This document shows, piece after piece, positions 34,538 to 39,741 of a stretch of DNA of 64,000 nt. Below the pieces are notes generated by a model. The model had not been told where the DNA came from. It was given only the letters and a program-made list of their open reading frames with translations, and did not search any database. The stretch is from Marinobacter sp. es.048. Lineage in GTDB: Bacteria; Pseudomonadota; Gammaproteobacteria; Pseudomonadales; Oleiphilaceae. Positions within the stretch are counted from its first letter, which is position 1, and every line of letters starts with the position of its first letter. The DNA is taken from the NCBI RefSeq assembly GCF_900188435.1, contig NZ_FYFA01000001.1, forward strand, positions 558,001-622,000, read 5' to 3'. The translations under genes and the position numbers were made by a program.

Positions 34538-35269
34538 TCAGGAATCGGGATTGAGGCGGATATCCCCGTACCAGGCGGTCGCTTTTTCCCCGGTGTTGTC
34601 TGAATCCGACATAATGGCAATACCCACCACCGGAGGTGGTTCCTCGCCAAAAGCTTCCCGGTAGTCAGCCATGATGTCCCGTTCCACAGTGACCCATTCC
34701 CCAACCTTTTCTGATCCGGAATTCACCGCGATCATCATGGTTTTTTCGGTGTATGGATTGGGTACGATCTCGCCCTCTGCGAGGGTATTGGCCCAGATGT
34801 AGTTCAGGGCGTTGCCCGGTAAAGACTCGCCGAACAATACTTCAACCGTTTTCCGTTTTGCGCGCTCGAAAAAGCCGGCCTTCTCGGGCTGAAACTCGAA
34901 CGCAACGTAGATTCTGGCGGGATAGTCGTCACCGGACTTTTGCCGGGCATTGCCGTTTTCGAATACATTCGAGACCTTCCAGCGCCATTGCAGAATCATA
35001 GAACCGGTGGGCTCCAGTCTTACCCGTGCGATCAGGCCCGACGCTCCGCCCTCCGTGGTCGCCCGCACAACCTGCTGACCGTCCTCGGTTGTCAGTTCAT
35101 AGCGGCTGAGCTGGTCGATCTTGGGGAATTCCAGAGGTTCCCAGCCATCGTTGAGAGACTGCATCTGGGAGAAGGGAGTCAAGGCTGCCTCTTGTGACGC
35201 GACGGGCGTAACGAGCATGAAAGAAACGAGGAGCGGGCCCCAGATTCGTTTGTATCCGACCTTCTCCAT
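34538..35269 (-). CDS. DUF3047 domain-containing exported protein
   Basis: The 243-aa product has an N-terminal signal peptide (about 1-25, ending near PVASQ) and then the DUF3047 pattern: ILQWRWKVSNVFENGN, DDYPARIYVAFEF, NALNYIWAN and VERDIMADYREAFGEEPPPVVGIAIMSDSDNTGE. DUF3047 proteins are exported beta-rich proteins of unknown function. It is divergent from nrdA, whose promoter lies about 60 bp from its start, and convergent with the preceding solute-binding gene. Confidence 0.85.
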   Translation of the reverse strand: MEKVGYKRIWGPLLVSFMLVTPVASQEAALTPFSQMQSLNDGWEPLEFPKIDQLSRYELTTEDGQQVVRATTEGGASGLIARVRLEPTGSMILQWRWKVSNVFENGNARQKSGDDYPARIYVAFEFQPEKAGFFERAKRKTVEVLFGESLPGNALNYIWANTLAEGEIVPNPYTEKTMMIAVNSGSEKVGEWVTVERDIMADYREAFGEEPPPVVGIAIMSDSDNTGEKATAWYGDIRLNPDS

Positions 35270-35329
35270 AGTGCCTCTCCTCTTATCAGGGCGTTTCCGT
35301 TGCAGACAGATGTTTTACCGGAAAGTGCC

Positions 35330-35358
35330 TTGTCCTGTAAAAGCTACCCGTATATAGT
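35330..35358 (+). promoter_or_regulatory. Putative promoter of the nrdAB leader
   Basis: TTGTCC (35330-35335), a 17-nt spacer and TATAGT (35353-35358) lie just upstream of the cobalamin riboswitch. Transcription from here would give a leader of roughly 430 nt ahead of nrdA, containing the riboswitch and the inverted repeat. Confidence 0.6.
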
Positions 35359-35394
35359 GTTTTCATCCTTGGTTAAATACTAGATGTAGTGATC

Positions 35395-35592
35395 AGTGCG
35401 TAACCAGCTCGGTCAGTACGTGATCACTTCAAACATTTTGGTATCGGGAATCCGGTGAGACTCCGGAACTGACGCGCAGCGGTATTGGGGAACAAGCACG
35501 GCATTACGACACTGGTTGAGACCGGGAAGTCGCCGAGCGAGGCCGAATCGAACGATTCACGCCCCTGAGTCCGAAGACCTGCCAGGGAGAAA
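35395..35592 (+). ncRNA. Cobalamin (B12) riboswitch upstream of nrdA
   Basis: The conserved cobalamin-riboswitch blocks appear in order: TCGGGAATCCGGTGAGACTC (35444-35463), CTGACGCGCAGCGGTA (35469-35484), the B12-box-like CACTGG with ACCGGGAAGTCGC (around 35510-35533) and the terminal GAGTCCGAAGACCTGCC (35567-35583). The element precedes a class I ribonucleotide reductase. B12 riboswitches are known to repress B12-independent RNR genes in bacteria that also carry the B12-dependent class II enzyme. The ends are approximate; the expression platform between 35593 and nrdA was not resolved. Confidence 0.88.
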
Positions 35593-35643
35593 GAACTGCA
35601 CCTTCGCGACTCAGGGTGAGCAGACCGGACTCAGGCCAGACCC

Positions 35644-35729
35644 GTAGGTCGGATTAGCGAAGCGTAATCCGACACCTCTGTTTGCGCCAGGCCGCCTTTG
35701 TCGGATTACGCTTCGCTAATCCGACCTAC
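35644..35729. repeat. REP/BIME-like inverted repeat pair, copy 1
   Basis: A 30-nt unit starting GTAGGTCGGATTAGCGAAGC (35644-35673) recurs as its exact reverse complement at 35700-35729, separated by 26 nt. Each unit is itself palindromic (GTCGGATTA/TAATCCGAC). It lies in the nrdA leader, between the riboswitch and the start codon. The same structure is found downstream of nrdA. Such elements are typical of dispersed REP sequences mobilised by RAYT transposases; none is encoded here. Confidence 0.9.
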
Positions 35730-35797
35730 GGTGGCGCTCCGTTTCTCTGCCTACGCGATGGTGAAAGGAATTCAACGCGTATTCAGGAGAACACCAC

Positions 35798-38563
35798 ATG
35801 TCCGCCTCAGCACTGGCCGAACCTCGGCCAACCTCCCTCACCGATACCGAAACCCTCCAGGTCATCAAACGCAACGGCACCCTCGTGGGTTTCGACCCGT
35901 CGAAGATCAGCATCGCCGTGACCAAAGCCTTCCTCGCTGTTGAGGGTGACAATGCCGCCGGTTCCGCTCGTATCAACGATGCGGTGCACCGGGTCACGGA
36001 ACAGGTCATTCAGGCCATCAGTCGACGCCTGAAAGCAGGCGGCAAGGTGCATATTGAAGACATCCAGGACCAGGTCGAGCTTGCCCTGATGCGGGCCGAG
36101 GAGCAGAAGGTCGCCCGCGCCTATGTGCTCTATCGGGAGGAGCATGCTCGCCAGCGTGCGATCGACGAGCCGGTGGAAGCTCACCCACACCTCACCGTGA
36201 AAAAAGCCAGCGGCGAAACCGCGCCTCTGGATCTGGGTTTGATGAAGCTCCAGGTCGAACAGGCCGCGACCGGGCTGGAAGGTATTGACGGCGACTCACT
36301 GGTGCAGGATGCCCTGACCAACCTTTACGACGGCATCGCCGAAGAGGACGTGCTGTCCGCCCTGGTGATGACCGCGCGCAGCCGGATTGAGCGAGAGCCT
36401 GACTACAGCGCGGTTACCGCCCGTTTGCTGCTGGAGCAGCTGCGCCTGGAAAACGCGTTGGCCCTGGACCTGCAGCGGGACTTGCCGCTGGCAGAGCTTT
36501 ATCCACAGGCGCTTGAATCATTCATCCACGCCGGTATCCGTTATGAACTCCTGGATGAAGCTCTGGCCGCTTTCGATCTGGAGCGCCTTGGCGCTGCGCT
36601 GAAGCCAGAGCGTGACCTGCAATTTGGCTTCCTGGGCCTGCAAACCCTGTACGACCGTTACTTCCTGCACTGGAACAAGGCTCGCCTGGAATTGCCCCAA
36701 GTATTCTTTATGCGCGTGGCCATGGGCCTGGCCCTGCGGGAAGACGATCCGAATGCCCGCGCCATCGAGTTCTACAACCTGTTGTCGTCCTTTGACTACA
36801 TGGCATCCACGCCCACGTTGTTTAATAGCGGCACCCGCCATTCCCAGCTGTCTTCCTGCTACCTGACCACTGTGGGTGATGACCTGGAAGACATCTACGG
36901 TGCCATCCGCGACAACGCCATGCTGTCGAAATGGGCTGGCGGCCTGGGCAACGACTGGACCCCGGTGCGCGCGCTCGGCTCCCACATCAAGGGGACCAAC
37001 GGCCAGAGCCAGGGCGTAGTGCCGTTCCTGAAAGTGGTGAACGACACTGCCGTGGCGGTGAACCAGGGTGGCAAGCGCAAAGGCGCTGTATGCGCCTACC
37101 TGGAAAGCTGGCATCTGGATATTGAAGAGTTTCTGGAGCTGCGCAAGAACACCGGCGACGAGCGCCGCCGCACCCACGACATGAACACCGCCAACTGGGT
37201 GCCGGACCTGCTGATCGAACGCATGCGCAAAGACCGTGACTGGACCCTGTTCTCCCCGAGCGATGCGCCGGATCTGCACGACCTGTACGGCAACGCCTTC
37301 CGTGAACGCTACGAGCATTACGAAGCGCTGGCGGAGCAGGGCAGGATCAAGCTGTTCAGGAAAATCCCGGCCAAGCAGCTCTGGCGCAAGATGCTCACCG
37401 TGCTATTCGAAACCGGGCACCCCTGGATTACCTTCAAGGACCCCTGCAACCTGCGCTCGCCCCAGCAGCACCGGGGTGTGGTACACAGCTCCAACCTGTG
37501 CACGGAAATCACCCTGAACATCAGTGCCGATGAAATTGCCGTGTGCAACCTGGGTTCCGTAAACCTTGCGGCTCATATCGCCAACGGCGAGCTGGATGTG
37601 CAGCGTCTGGAACAAACGGTGAACACCGCTGTGCGCATGCTCGATAACGTTATCGACATCAACTACTACGCCGTGCCCCAGGCCCGCAATTCCAACCGGA
37701 AACATCGCCCGGTCGGTCTTGGCCTGATGGGGTTCCAGGATGCGCTCTATCAATTGGGCCTGCCGTATTCCAGCCCGGAAGCGGTGGAGTTTGCCGACCT
37801 TGCCATGGAGCAGCTCAGCTACTTCGCCATTCGCGCCTCAGCCACGCTGGCGGGTGAGCGAGGTGCTTACGAGACTTATGAAGGTTCTCTCTGGCAGCAG
37901 GGCATCCTGCCTATCGACTCGATCGACCTGCTGAAGGAAAACCGCAGGGAAGGGGATCTGTCCATCAACAACAACGCTCGCCTGGACTGGTCGCCGGTGC
38001 GTGACCTCATCGCCAAGAACGGCATGCGGAACAGCAATGTGATGGCGATTGCGCCCACAGCCACCATCTCCAACATCGTGGGCGTGTCCCAGTCCATCGA
38101 GCCGGCGTATCAGAACCTGTTCGTGAAATCGAACCTCTCCGGAGAATTCACCGTGGTCAATCCTTCCCTGGTTCGGGACCTCAAGGCCGAAGGCCTGTGG
38201 GACAACGTGATGGTGAATGACCTCAAATACTTCGACGGGTCCGTGCAGCAGATCGACCGTATTCCGGTTGAATTGAAGGCCCGCTACGCCACCGCCTTCG
38301 AGATCGATGCGAGATGGCTGGTGGAGGCCGCCGCAAGGCGCCAGAAATGGCTCGATCAGGCCCAGAGCCTCAACCTGTACATGGCAGAGCCCAGCGGCAA
38401 AAAGCTTGATGCCCTCTACCAGCTGGCCTGGGAGCGTGGGCTGAAAACCACCTATTACCTGCGCTCCCTGGGTGCCACCGGCGCGGAAAAAACTGCGCCG
38501 GTGTCAGCACCACAGCCACAAGTGTGCAGCATCGATGAGCCGGACTGCGAGGCATGCCAGTAG
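35798..38563 (+). CDS. nrdA: Class I ribonucleoside-diphosphate reductase, alpha subunit
   Basis: NrdA reduces ribonucleotides to deoxyribonucleotides using the radical from NrdB. The 921-aa protein has an N-terminal ATP-cone (about 19-120, VIKRNGTLVGFDPSKI) and a second ATP-cone-like repeat (about 130-215, LTVKKASGETAPLDLGLMKL), an arrangement known from Pseudomonas NrdA. The catalytic barrel shows the redox cysteines in LSSCYLTT and AVCNLGSVNL, the radical cysteine in SSNLCTEITLN and the paired tyrosines in KTTYYLRSLGA. The tail cysteines 910, 917 and 920 serve re-reduction. The leader carries a cobalamin riboswitch and a REP pair; nrdB follows after 119 bp. Confidence 0.96.
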   Translation: MSASALAEPRPTSLTDTETLQVIKRNGTLVGFDPSKISIAVTKAFLAVEGDNAAGSARINDAVHRVTEQVIQAISRRLKAGGKVHIEDIQDQVELALMRAEEQKVARAYVLYREEHARQRAIDEPVEAHPHLTVKKASGETAPLDLGLMKLQVEQAATGLEGIDGDSLVQDALTNLYDGIAEEDVLSALVMTARSRIEREPDYSAVTARLLLEQLRLENALALDLQRDLPLAELYPQALESFIHAGIRYELLDEALAAFDLERLGAALKPERDLQFGFLGLQTLYDRYFLHWNKARLELPQVFFMRVAMGLALREDDPNARAIEFYNLLSSFDYMASTPTLFNSGTRHSQLSSCYLTTVGDDLEDIYGAIRDNAMLSKWAGGLGNDWTPVRALGSHIKGTNGQSQGVVPFLKVVNDTAVAVNQGGKRKGAVCAYLESWHLDIEEFLELRKNTGDERRRTHDMNTANWVPDLLIERMRKDRDWTLFSPSDAPDLHDLYGNAFRERYEHYEALAEQGRIKLFRKIPAKQLWRKMLTVLFETGHPWITFKDPCNLRSPQQHRGVVHSSNLCTEITLNISADEIAVCNLGSVNLAAHIANGELDVQRLEQTVNTAVRMLDNVIDINYYAVPQARNSNRKHRPVGLGLMGFQDALYQLGLPYSSPEAVEFADLAMEQLSYFAIRASATLAGERGAYETYEGSLWQQGILPIDSIDLLKENRREGDLSINNNARLDWSPVRDLIAKNGMRNSNVMAIAPTATISNIVGVSQSIEPAYQNLFVKSNLSGEFTVVNPSLVRDLKAEGLWDNVMVNDLKYFDGSVQQIDRIPVELKARYATAFEIDARWLVEAAARRQKWLDQAQSLNLYMAEPSGKKLDALYQLAWERGLKTTYYLRSLGATGAEKTAPVSAPQPQVCSIDEPDCEACQ

Positions 38564-38569
38564 CTACCC

Positions 38570-38655
38570 GTAGGTCGGATTAGCAAAGCGTAATCCGACA
38601 ACCGAGCCAGAATTCACCAAACACAGTCGGATTACGCTTCGCTAATCCGACCTAC
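38570..38655. repeat. REP/BIME-like inverted repeat pair, copy 2
   Basis: Left unit 38570-38599 and right unit 38626-38655 repeat the 30-nt sequences of the copy at 35644-35729, with one change in the left unit (GCAAAG for GCGAAG) and the same 26-nt spacer length but an unrelated spacer sequence. It begins 7 bases after the nrdA stop and ends 27 bases before nrdB, so it is transcribed between the two genes. It could form a stable hairpin affecting nrdA mRNA stability or nrdB expression. Confidence 0.9.
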
Positions 38656-38682
38656 GATGAACCGAATTCAGAGGTAAGAGGC

Positions 38683-39741
38683 ATGCTCAACTGGGACGAC
38701 GAACCAAAAACTGAATCCAGGGCGGCGCATCCCGGCGCCCCGGCCCCCGTGAATGTCGACGACAAACGTGTCATCAACGGCGAAACCGACATCAACCAGC
38801 TGGCGCCATTCAAGTATCCCTGGGCCTGGGAGTACTTCATGAACGCGAACAAGAACCACTGGACCCCCCTGGATGTGAACATGGCCCAGGACGTTCATGA
38901 CTATCATCACCGGCTGACAGCTCCGGAAAAGCACGTCTATGAGAATGTGCTGGCCTACCTCACCACCTCCGATATCCTTGCCATGCGCAACATCGGGCTC
39001 GCGGTGATGGAAAAGATGAGTGCGCCGGAGCTACAGATCTACCAGGCCCGGCAGGTCTATGAAGAAGCCATGCACACCTGGGCCTACCAGCACTGCATCG
39101 AAACCCTGAACCTGGACCAGAGCGAGATCTACAACCGCTATCGTGTGGTGCCCGCGATCAACGGTAAGATCCAGATCGCTAACCGCCGGCTGGATGCCGC
39201 CATGCGCCCGGACATGAGCCTGCGCAACAAGGACGACCTGCAGGAATTCATCATGTCCTACCTGTTTTTCGCCGCGGTGTTCGAGGGTACCTGGTTCTAC
39301 AACGGTTTCAGCCCCATCTTCGCTCTGCAGCGCCGGGGCCTGATGCGTGGTACGGGTGAGCAACTGCAGTACATTCTGCGGGACGAGGCCATGCATTTCT
39401 CCTTTGGCCTGAAGGTGGTGAACCAGATCGTGGAGGAGGAGAACATTACCTTTGACCCGAAGGCTGTGCGTGAGATGTGGGACGAATCCGAAGCCGCTGA
39501 GAAGGCCTATGCGAACTACATTCTGCGGGATCCGATACTCGGTTATTCCGCGGAATACCACAGCGAGCAGTTCCGCTTCGTGGCGAATCGCCGTGCCCGT
39601 ACCGTGGGTCTGGAGGAGCCGTTCCCGGGCGCGAAGAACGTCTCGCCATGGCTGGACGAGCAGGCCAACCTGCGCAAGGAGAAGAACTTTTTTGAAACCC
39701 GGGTAATCGAATACCAGACGGGAGCCCAGCTTGAGTGGTAG
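38683..39741 (+). CDS. nrdB: Class I ribonucleoside-diphosphate reductase, beta subunit
   Basis: The 352-aa radical-generating subunit carries the expected diiron ligands and tyrosine: an Asp in TTSDILAMRN, Glu/His/Tyr in VYEEAMHTWAYQHCIE, Glu in AVFEGTWFYNGF, and Glu/His in LRDEAMHFSFG. The tyrosine spaced seven residues after the first Glu ligand corresponds to E. coli Y122, so a Tyr-radical class Ia-type enzyme is expected. The C-terminal EYQTGAQLEW supplies the docking tail. AGAGGT precedes the ATG. It is separated from nrdA by the REP pair. Confidence 0.95.
   Translation: MLNWDDEPKTESRAAHPGAPAPVNVDDKRVINGETDINQLAPFKYPWAWEYFMNANKNHWTPLDVNMAQDVHDYHHRLTAPEKHVYENVLAYLTTSDILAMRNIGLAVMEKMSAPELQIYQARQVYEEAMHTWAYQHCIETLNLDQSEIYNRYRVVPAINGKIQIANRRLDAAMRPDMSLRNKDDLQEFIMSYLFFAAVFEGTWFYNGFSPIFALQRRGLMRGTGEQLQYILRDEAMHFSFGLKVVNQIVEEENITFDPKAVREMWDESEAAEKAYANYILRDPILGYSAEYHSEQFRFVANRRARTVGLEEPFPGAKNVSPWLDEQANLRKEKNFFETRVIEYQTGAQLEW

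Follow-up and report, generated by a model that had tools for sequence, protein, structure and literature searches.

Cobalamin control of class I ribonucleotide reductase has been described in S. coelicolor, in which a cobalamin riboswitch precedes nrdABS (Borovok 2006, as cited in PMC4991794 and PMC4342826), and a B12 riboswitch before nrdAB has been predicted in B. methanolicus (PMC4342826). For translational corrinoid riboswitches, the logic that links P13, a kissing loop and a ribosome-site hairpin has been published, and the region from P13 to this hairpin is described as the most length-variable one in the excerpted text of PMC10653944. Among repeats, the GTAG tag describes one REP super-family (excerpted text of PMC3733652), and an inverted pair of REPs is what Bertels 2011 (PMC3116915) calls a REPIN. 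A REP close to the stop codon of nrdA has been reported for E. coli nrdAB (Liang 2015, as cited in PMC12306157).

Here we analysed a 64-kb window (the whole stretch of DNA under study) of a Marinobacter genome. We found a cobalamin aptamer with conserved alternative pairings 5′ of the nrdAB gene pair, a REPIN in the same leader, its absence from the leaders of most relatives and, elsewhere in the genome, NrdJ and B12-uptake-like genes. We consider it probable that a translational riboswitch of the adenosylcobalamin type turns nrdAB off with B12, and that the REPIN is an inherited spacer.

As in S. coelicolor, a B12 aptamer lies 5′ of class I nrdAB and NrdJ is found in the same bacterium; the S. 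coelicolor nrdABS riboswitch acts on transcription according to the citing texts, whereas hiding of the Shine-Dalgarno sequence is predicted here and a REPIN sits in the leader. With E. coli btuB and env8HyCbl, as described in the excerpts of PMC10653944, the locus shares a predicted L5–L13 kissing loop and a P13 that would promote the ribosome-binding-site hairpin, but the target gene is another one, L5 is of the ACGCG type (the Rfam consensus is C-rich) and an extra anti-sequestor, A:B, encloses a long variable linker. For Priestia megaterium metE, the same excerpts likewise describe a structured segment, variable in length, that separates P13 from the regulatory hairpin downstream of it, and a P13 strand that can alternatively pair with this hairpin; there the hairpin is a transcriptional terminator, whereas here the segment is filled by several repeat families, depending on the species. 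The REPIN itself resembles the GTAG REP dimers and REPINs in the excerpts of PMC3733652 in being a GTAG-tagged palindrome that is inverted in pairs, multicopy and intergenic. Unlike those, it lies between an aptamer and a start codon, in a genome in which we found no RAYT. A second REPIN recalls the E. coli nrdAB REP because it begins 5 nt past the stop codon, inside the 15-nt range that is said to stall ribosomes, although the REP family and the organism are different. Among the matches listed in the literature on REPs and riboswitches, no title concerned a REP within a B12 riboswitch, nor did a REPIN or another repeat in the linker turn up; this does not prove that none has been described.

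A cobalamin aptamer precedes nrdAB

The initial annotation had noted cobalamin-riboswitch blocks 5′ of nrdA and proposed the RF00174 covariance model as a check. The model gave a significant match at 35422–35600 (+ strand, model positions 1–189; 75 bits against a gathering score of 31.5 bits; E value 1.2e-16), which bears out those blocks. This was the only Rfam match at or above the gathering threshold across the 64-kb window. By comparison with the Rfam alignment and the excerpted text of PMC10653944, we assigned L5 to the hairpin CTGACGCGCAG (35469–35479, + strand), the letters of which are identical in 106 of 110 leaders. Its CGCG (35473–35476) can pair with the CGCG of L13, a match by complementarity between motifs that do not covary in the leader set. 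We also considered the GGT...ACC hairpin of the aptamer as the kissing-loop partner and rejected it, as it has no match to L13.

The B12 box AGTCCGAAGACCTGCC (35568–35583, + strand) is present and is conserved across leaders. An apparent loss of the box at three loci (L218, L226 and L228), where a substitution-only search had given no match, was rejected: the box is there with small changes (up to five substitutions allowed), and the leaders of L218 and L228 have an inserted base. The leader as a whole (35395–35810) was more stable than 100 of 100 shuffles (z = −6.13), and we read much of this modelled stability as probably coming from the REPIN stem. The aptamer would be expected to bind a corrinoid and to change expression.

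The gene after the leader, nrdA (35798–38563, + strand), encodes a class I alpha subunit of 921 aa with an ATP cone (PF03477, PF00317 and PF02867) that scores 1628.9 bits with NF005544 (cut-off 965). It is followed by nrdB (38683–39741, + strand), which encodes the class I beta subunit (NF005550, 350.7 bits, cut-off 309). The NrdA protein is 92% identical to that of M. vinifirmus, and its nearest named relatives are Marinobacter. A Shine-Dalgarno sequence, AGGAG, lies at 35785–35789 (+ strand) before nrdA. The divergent neighbour (34538–35269, − strand) is a DUF3047 protein (PF11249, 271.3 bits). In one relative (L250, genome G085), NrdA comes directly after the leader without the ATP-cone region, and the query match begins near residue 122–126.

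Alternative pairings around the Shine-Dalgarno sequence

To describe the expression platform, we compared 111 leaders, from the window and from 110 of the 112 other NrdA-bearing genomes; G046 and G115 were excluded as incomplete at the start. The alignment held 110 rows, of which 59 were distinct over the columns used. The elements of the platform all lie on the + strand. Element A, CTGCACCTTCGCG (35596–35608), is the 5′ strand of P13 plus L13 and can pair with B too, and A′, AGGGTGAGCAG (35613–35623), is the 3′ strand of P13, the GCAG of which can pair with CTGC of B. Element B, CTCTGCCTACGCGATGG (35745–35761), has B′ as its partner in the OFF state or A and A′ in the ON state, and B′, AACGCGTATTCAGG (35774–35787), is the 3′ strand of the sequestor. 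The A:B pairing joins CACCTTCGCG with CGCGAAGGTG, with one mismatch in the window. Across the leaders, P13, the Shine-Dalgarno hairpin and the A:B helix flank a variable linker. This pattern fits 109 of the 111 leaders, including that of the window, and the two misfits (L245 and L250) have a related platform by eye.

The alternative pairings are supported by natural variation. The B:B′ helix, which covers the Shine-Dalgarno sequence, had 22 both-side changes against a shuffle mean of 5.6, and the A:B anti-sequestor had 6 against 1.5, with 86.4% of cells paired; for each helix 0 of 300 shuffles were as high, in shuffles that ignore the relatedness of the leaders. P13 (A:A′) was 98.3% paired and nearly invariant, with one both-side change, a number that 38 of 300 shuffles reached; the CGCG of L13 was unchanged in 59 of 59 distinct rows. 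P13, L5 and L13 are without covariation support in this set because they hardly vary. Slid versions of each helix paired much worse, the structure itself having been read from the same sequences.

These pairings suggest how the switch may work. With ligand bound, L5 would kiss L13 and so fix P13 (A:A′), which would leave B free to pair with B′ and hide the Shine-Dalgarno sequence (OFF). Without ligand, A would pair with B and the GCAG of A′ with CTGC, and both B′ and the Shine-Dalgarno sequence would be released (ON). When B12 is present, class I nrdAB would be off and the B12-dependent NrdJ would do the work. We infer that B12 represses and that control is translational rather than transcriptional.

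We modelled constrained ON and OFF folds of 107 leaders (L210 and L241 were excluded). In the window, four of the five Shine-Dalgarno nucleotides were paired in the OFF model and two of five in the ON model, a difference that, together with the covariation of B:B′, is characteristic of a translational platform. In the unliganded model, OFF was more stable by median in every leader class, and in most leaders. Left to thermodynamics, the switch would thus stay OFF even without ligand; if the model holds, reaching ON would depend on co-transcriptional folding or on kinetics governed by the ligand.

An alternative is that the leader attenuates transcription, by an intrinsic or Rho-dependent mechanism, instead of hiding the Shine-Dalgarno sequence. 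In its favour, transcriptional control is reported for nrdABS of S. coelicolor (as cited in PMC4991794), and the leader has one terminator-like site on the + strand (35648–35673). However, this sole site lies in the first REP unit, which is absent from most relatives, and its tail, ACCTCTGTTT, is weak, whereas B:B′ shows compensatory changes across the Shine-Dalgarno sequence. We therefore regard attenuation as improbable and prefer translational control.

A restriction of the platform to this genus was considered and rejected: of 293 genomes of the order, 13 carried the pattern, and while 12 of them belong to this genus, 1 belongs to another genus of the family. Outside Marinobacter, B12-box matches 5′ of nrdA were found in 3 of 74 loci, several of which have short upstream sequence. 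One of these matches is poor (L072) and two are exact (L094 and L096, from Bradyrhizobium and a betaproteobacterial MAG).

A promoter scan of 35200–35900 gave one candidate against a shuffle mean of 0.2, a putative sigma-70-like promoter, TTGTCC-17-TATAGT (35330–35358, + strand), that was identified as a consensus match. At 35351–35391 (+ strand) lies a pair of putative NrdR-box-like sites, TATATAGTG (35351–35359) and ACTAGATGTAGTG (35379–35391). Their starts are 28 nt apart, and the first overlaps the putative −10. Among the 111 leaders, 64 have the pair, 39 the first box only and 8 neither. A promoter overlapped by such a pair would fit a double control of nrdAB. The pair could also be taken to mean that nrdAB is under NrdR alone and that the aptamer is a relic without a B12 response, but 111 leaders of a genus in which the NrdA proteins differ by up to ~19% have retained the aptamer, the B12 box and the platform, and the sequestor shows compensatory changes. 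We consider a relic aptamer very improbable, and a responsive riboswitch remains the preferred reading.

NrdJ and putative B12 uptake

From the riboswitch before nrdA, the initial annotation had predicted an nrdJ gene elsewhere. This prediction holds, as the genome encodes a class II NrdJ (G000:C2:506000–508141) that scores 565.4 bits with TIGR02504 (adenosylcobalamin-dependent; cut-off 399.95). An aptamer 5′ of nrdAB and a B12-dependent NrdJ are thus present in one genome. A gene for a 232-aa TSCPD protein comes after the NrdJ gene, and we read the two proteins as a split NrdJ; a split NrdJ is also found in P. aeruginosa (PMC4520616, in excerpt).

A second cobalamin riboswitch in the genome (105.7 bits) lies 5′ of a B12-uptake-like cluster, which consists, in this order, of a TonB receptor whose best family is a B12 receptor and of btuF-, btuC- and btuD-like genes. 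The btuB-like (TIGR01779, 411.5 of 599.7), btuF-like (NF002894, 186.3 of 234) and btuC-like (NF003001, 232.2 of 334) genes score below the equivalog cut-offs, and their best matches are B12 families. The initial annotation had named two findings that would count against it, a leader without a covariance-model match and a genome without a B12-dependent reductase and without B12 uptake or synthesis; the opposite was found on both counts.

Of 120 genomes of the genus, 116 have NrdJ and 113 have NrdA; among the 106 genomes that are at least 90% complete, the counts are 106 and 102. In a riboswitch search with stricter filters, the seven genomes without an NrdA match had no cobalamin riboswitch match (G090) or one (the other six). 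Some NrdA-bearing genomes, such as G093 and G048, likewise had one match, so the lower number in NrdA-less genomes is a tendency. On the basis of this distribution, NrdAB looks like a dispensable, B12-repressed backup of NrdJ in the genus.

Some further observations concern individual genomes. G069, G073, G124 and G128, each at least 90% complete, have NrdJ and no NrdA match at an E value of 1e-100. The NrdJ of G104 (C1:553727–555864) is split into two pieces that overlap, with an internal TAG; either the gene is broken or the sequence contains an error. The NrdJ of L338 (G004:C1:607600–611500) contains an in-frame insert of ~370 aa that is intein-like, as it matches models of helicases and gyrases that bear inteins, and G094 and G109 have a similar in-frame insert in NrdJ as judged from match coordinates alone.

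A REPIN in the variable linker

The leader contains an inverted repeat with arms at 35642–35674 and 35699–35731, each of 33 nt, 100% complementary and 24 nt apart. The initial annotation had described an inverted pair of 30 nt; the pair was confirmed as perfect, with longer arms. The order that it gave also stands, with the aptamer (35422–35600) followed by the REPIN (35642–35731, + strand) and the start codon (35798). The REPIN consists of two inverted GTAG-tagged REP units (35644–35673 and 35700–35729) and lies in the linker between P13 (A′) and the Shine-Dalgarno hairpin (B).

The 26-nt core of the repeat has four copies in the window (up to three mismatches) against 0.00 expected from 100 dinucleotide shuffles. 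The 4.06-Mb genome has 26 copies, 13 forward and 13 reverse, at 19 sites, and a reversed control pattern gave 0. The repeat thus has a palindromic tagged unit, an inverted pair and multiple copies, as expected of GTAG REPs and REPINs. The second REPIN (38568–38656, + strand) lies between the nrdA stop and nrdB. Of 106 loci, 12 have a REP between nrdA and nrdB, and 11 of these belong to the 18 whose leader contains one.

A search for a Y1 transposase (RAYT; PF01797) at an E value of 1e-3 gave 0 matches in this genome and was positive, as a control, in 5 of 14 named genomes. At the homologous places of the 19 sites, a REP was present in 18 in G088 (17 of 19 without L018, a weaker match that relies on a flank of 125 nt and has the same target as L019) and in 7 in G010, both nrd sites included. 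From this conservation and the lack of a Y1 transposase match, we take the REPs here to be old copies that were inherited vertically and have lost their mobility, the leader copy being one of them. A special retention of the REP at nrdA was considered and rejected, as the other REP sites are conserved too.

The content of the linker varies among relatives. We typed leaders by loose motifs, with two assigned by hand (L241 as ACAGAT and L245 as native short). The 105 typed leaders comprised 64 native short, 18 REP, 10 other long, 5 CTCTCCC, 4 CACGGA and 4 ACAGAT, and 87 were therefore without a REP; in most relatives the linker is a short native hairpin of ~45–65 nt. CACGGA is a real multicopy repeat, with 22 (G122), 42 (G099), 8 (G114) and 1 (G095) copies, and the CTCTCCC and ACAGAT repeats occur at further places within the fetched loci. 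What stands out is that repeats of several palindromic families lie at one and the same linker position in different species. On an nrdA tree (FastTree, without an outgroup, so that gain and loss are undirected; 26 of 102 inner branches poorly supported), the minimum number of changes was 12 for REP, of which well-supported branches force 9, 4 for CTCTCCC, 3 for CACGGA and 1 for ACAGAT. Some of these changes could stem from recombination of leaders. REP inserts were far more stable relative to shuffles (median z −7.1; 14 of 17 below −2) than native inserts (median z −1.4; 16 of 56 below −2), which indicates that the linker does not require a very stable hairpin.

The initial annotation had suggested that the REP pair could have been recruited into the expression platform. 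This was not supported: the switching elements flank the REPIN and are kept in relatives without it, the full-arm REPIN stem of the window is identical whether ON or OFF is modelled, and REP positions are conserved generally. A reading of the REPIN chiefly as a switching strand was likewise rejected, since 87 of the typed leaders have no REP and the pairings are found without it. The REPIN lies within the platform region as a linker and is more likely to be tolerated baggage than part of the switch. In the mechanism that we propose, it would fold on itself in the naturally variable A′–B linker and bring both sides together, as a spacer inherited with the locus that provides no switching strand, and it may be nearly neutral.

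It may not be wholly neutral, as the modelled difference between ON and OFF is larger in REP leaders (median 4.3 kcal/mol, n = 17) than in native short ones (1.7 kcal/mol, n = 63). The medians of the other classes were 3.9 (CTCTCCC, n = 5), 4.4 (CACGGA, n = 4), 1.6 (ACAGAT, n = 3), 1.9 (other long, n = 10) and 3.0 kcal/mol (untyped, n = 5). One explanation is that the REPIN functions in the switch or its tuning, with a stable stem that speeds linker closure and favours OFF, or that attenuates, and that it was retained for this reason. Consistent with such a role, of the 38 genomes searched, all seven that contain 22 or more REP copies had a REP in the nrdA leader, versus 0 of the 18 others of the same genus; several palindrome families share the one linker, and the first REP unit was scanned as terminator-like. 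However, most typed leaders do without a REP, and the terminator-like tail has no real U run. REP sites elsewhere are conserved as well, and the modelled balance of the window (3.6 kcal/mol) equals that of the REP-less L147 (3.7 kcal/mol), so the difference between REP and native classes may be phylogenetic. A functional REPIN is possible but unlikely in our view, and we favour the inherited spacer.

A more general form of tuning would make the linker a permissive or even selected docking slot, in which self-folding, selfish repeats of unusual stability repeatedly re-tune the riboswitch toward OFF. REPINs, CACGGA-type nested palindromes and other families do lie at the equivalent position across Marinobacter species, and we offer this reading tentatively, as one that we doubt.

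Discussion

B12 riboswitches before nrdAB and the logic of their platform were already known; what is unusual here is a repeat as a passenger in the linker. The locus adds a lineage in which class I ribonucleotide reductase is apparently a B12-repressed backup of a near-universal NrdJ, and in which the natural variation of 111 leaders reveals the alternative pairings of the platform. The locus further places the tolerance of a riboswitch for mobile palindromes in the region between P13 and the ribosome-site hairpin, and the species with and without the repeat provide a natural test of whether inserts tune the switch.
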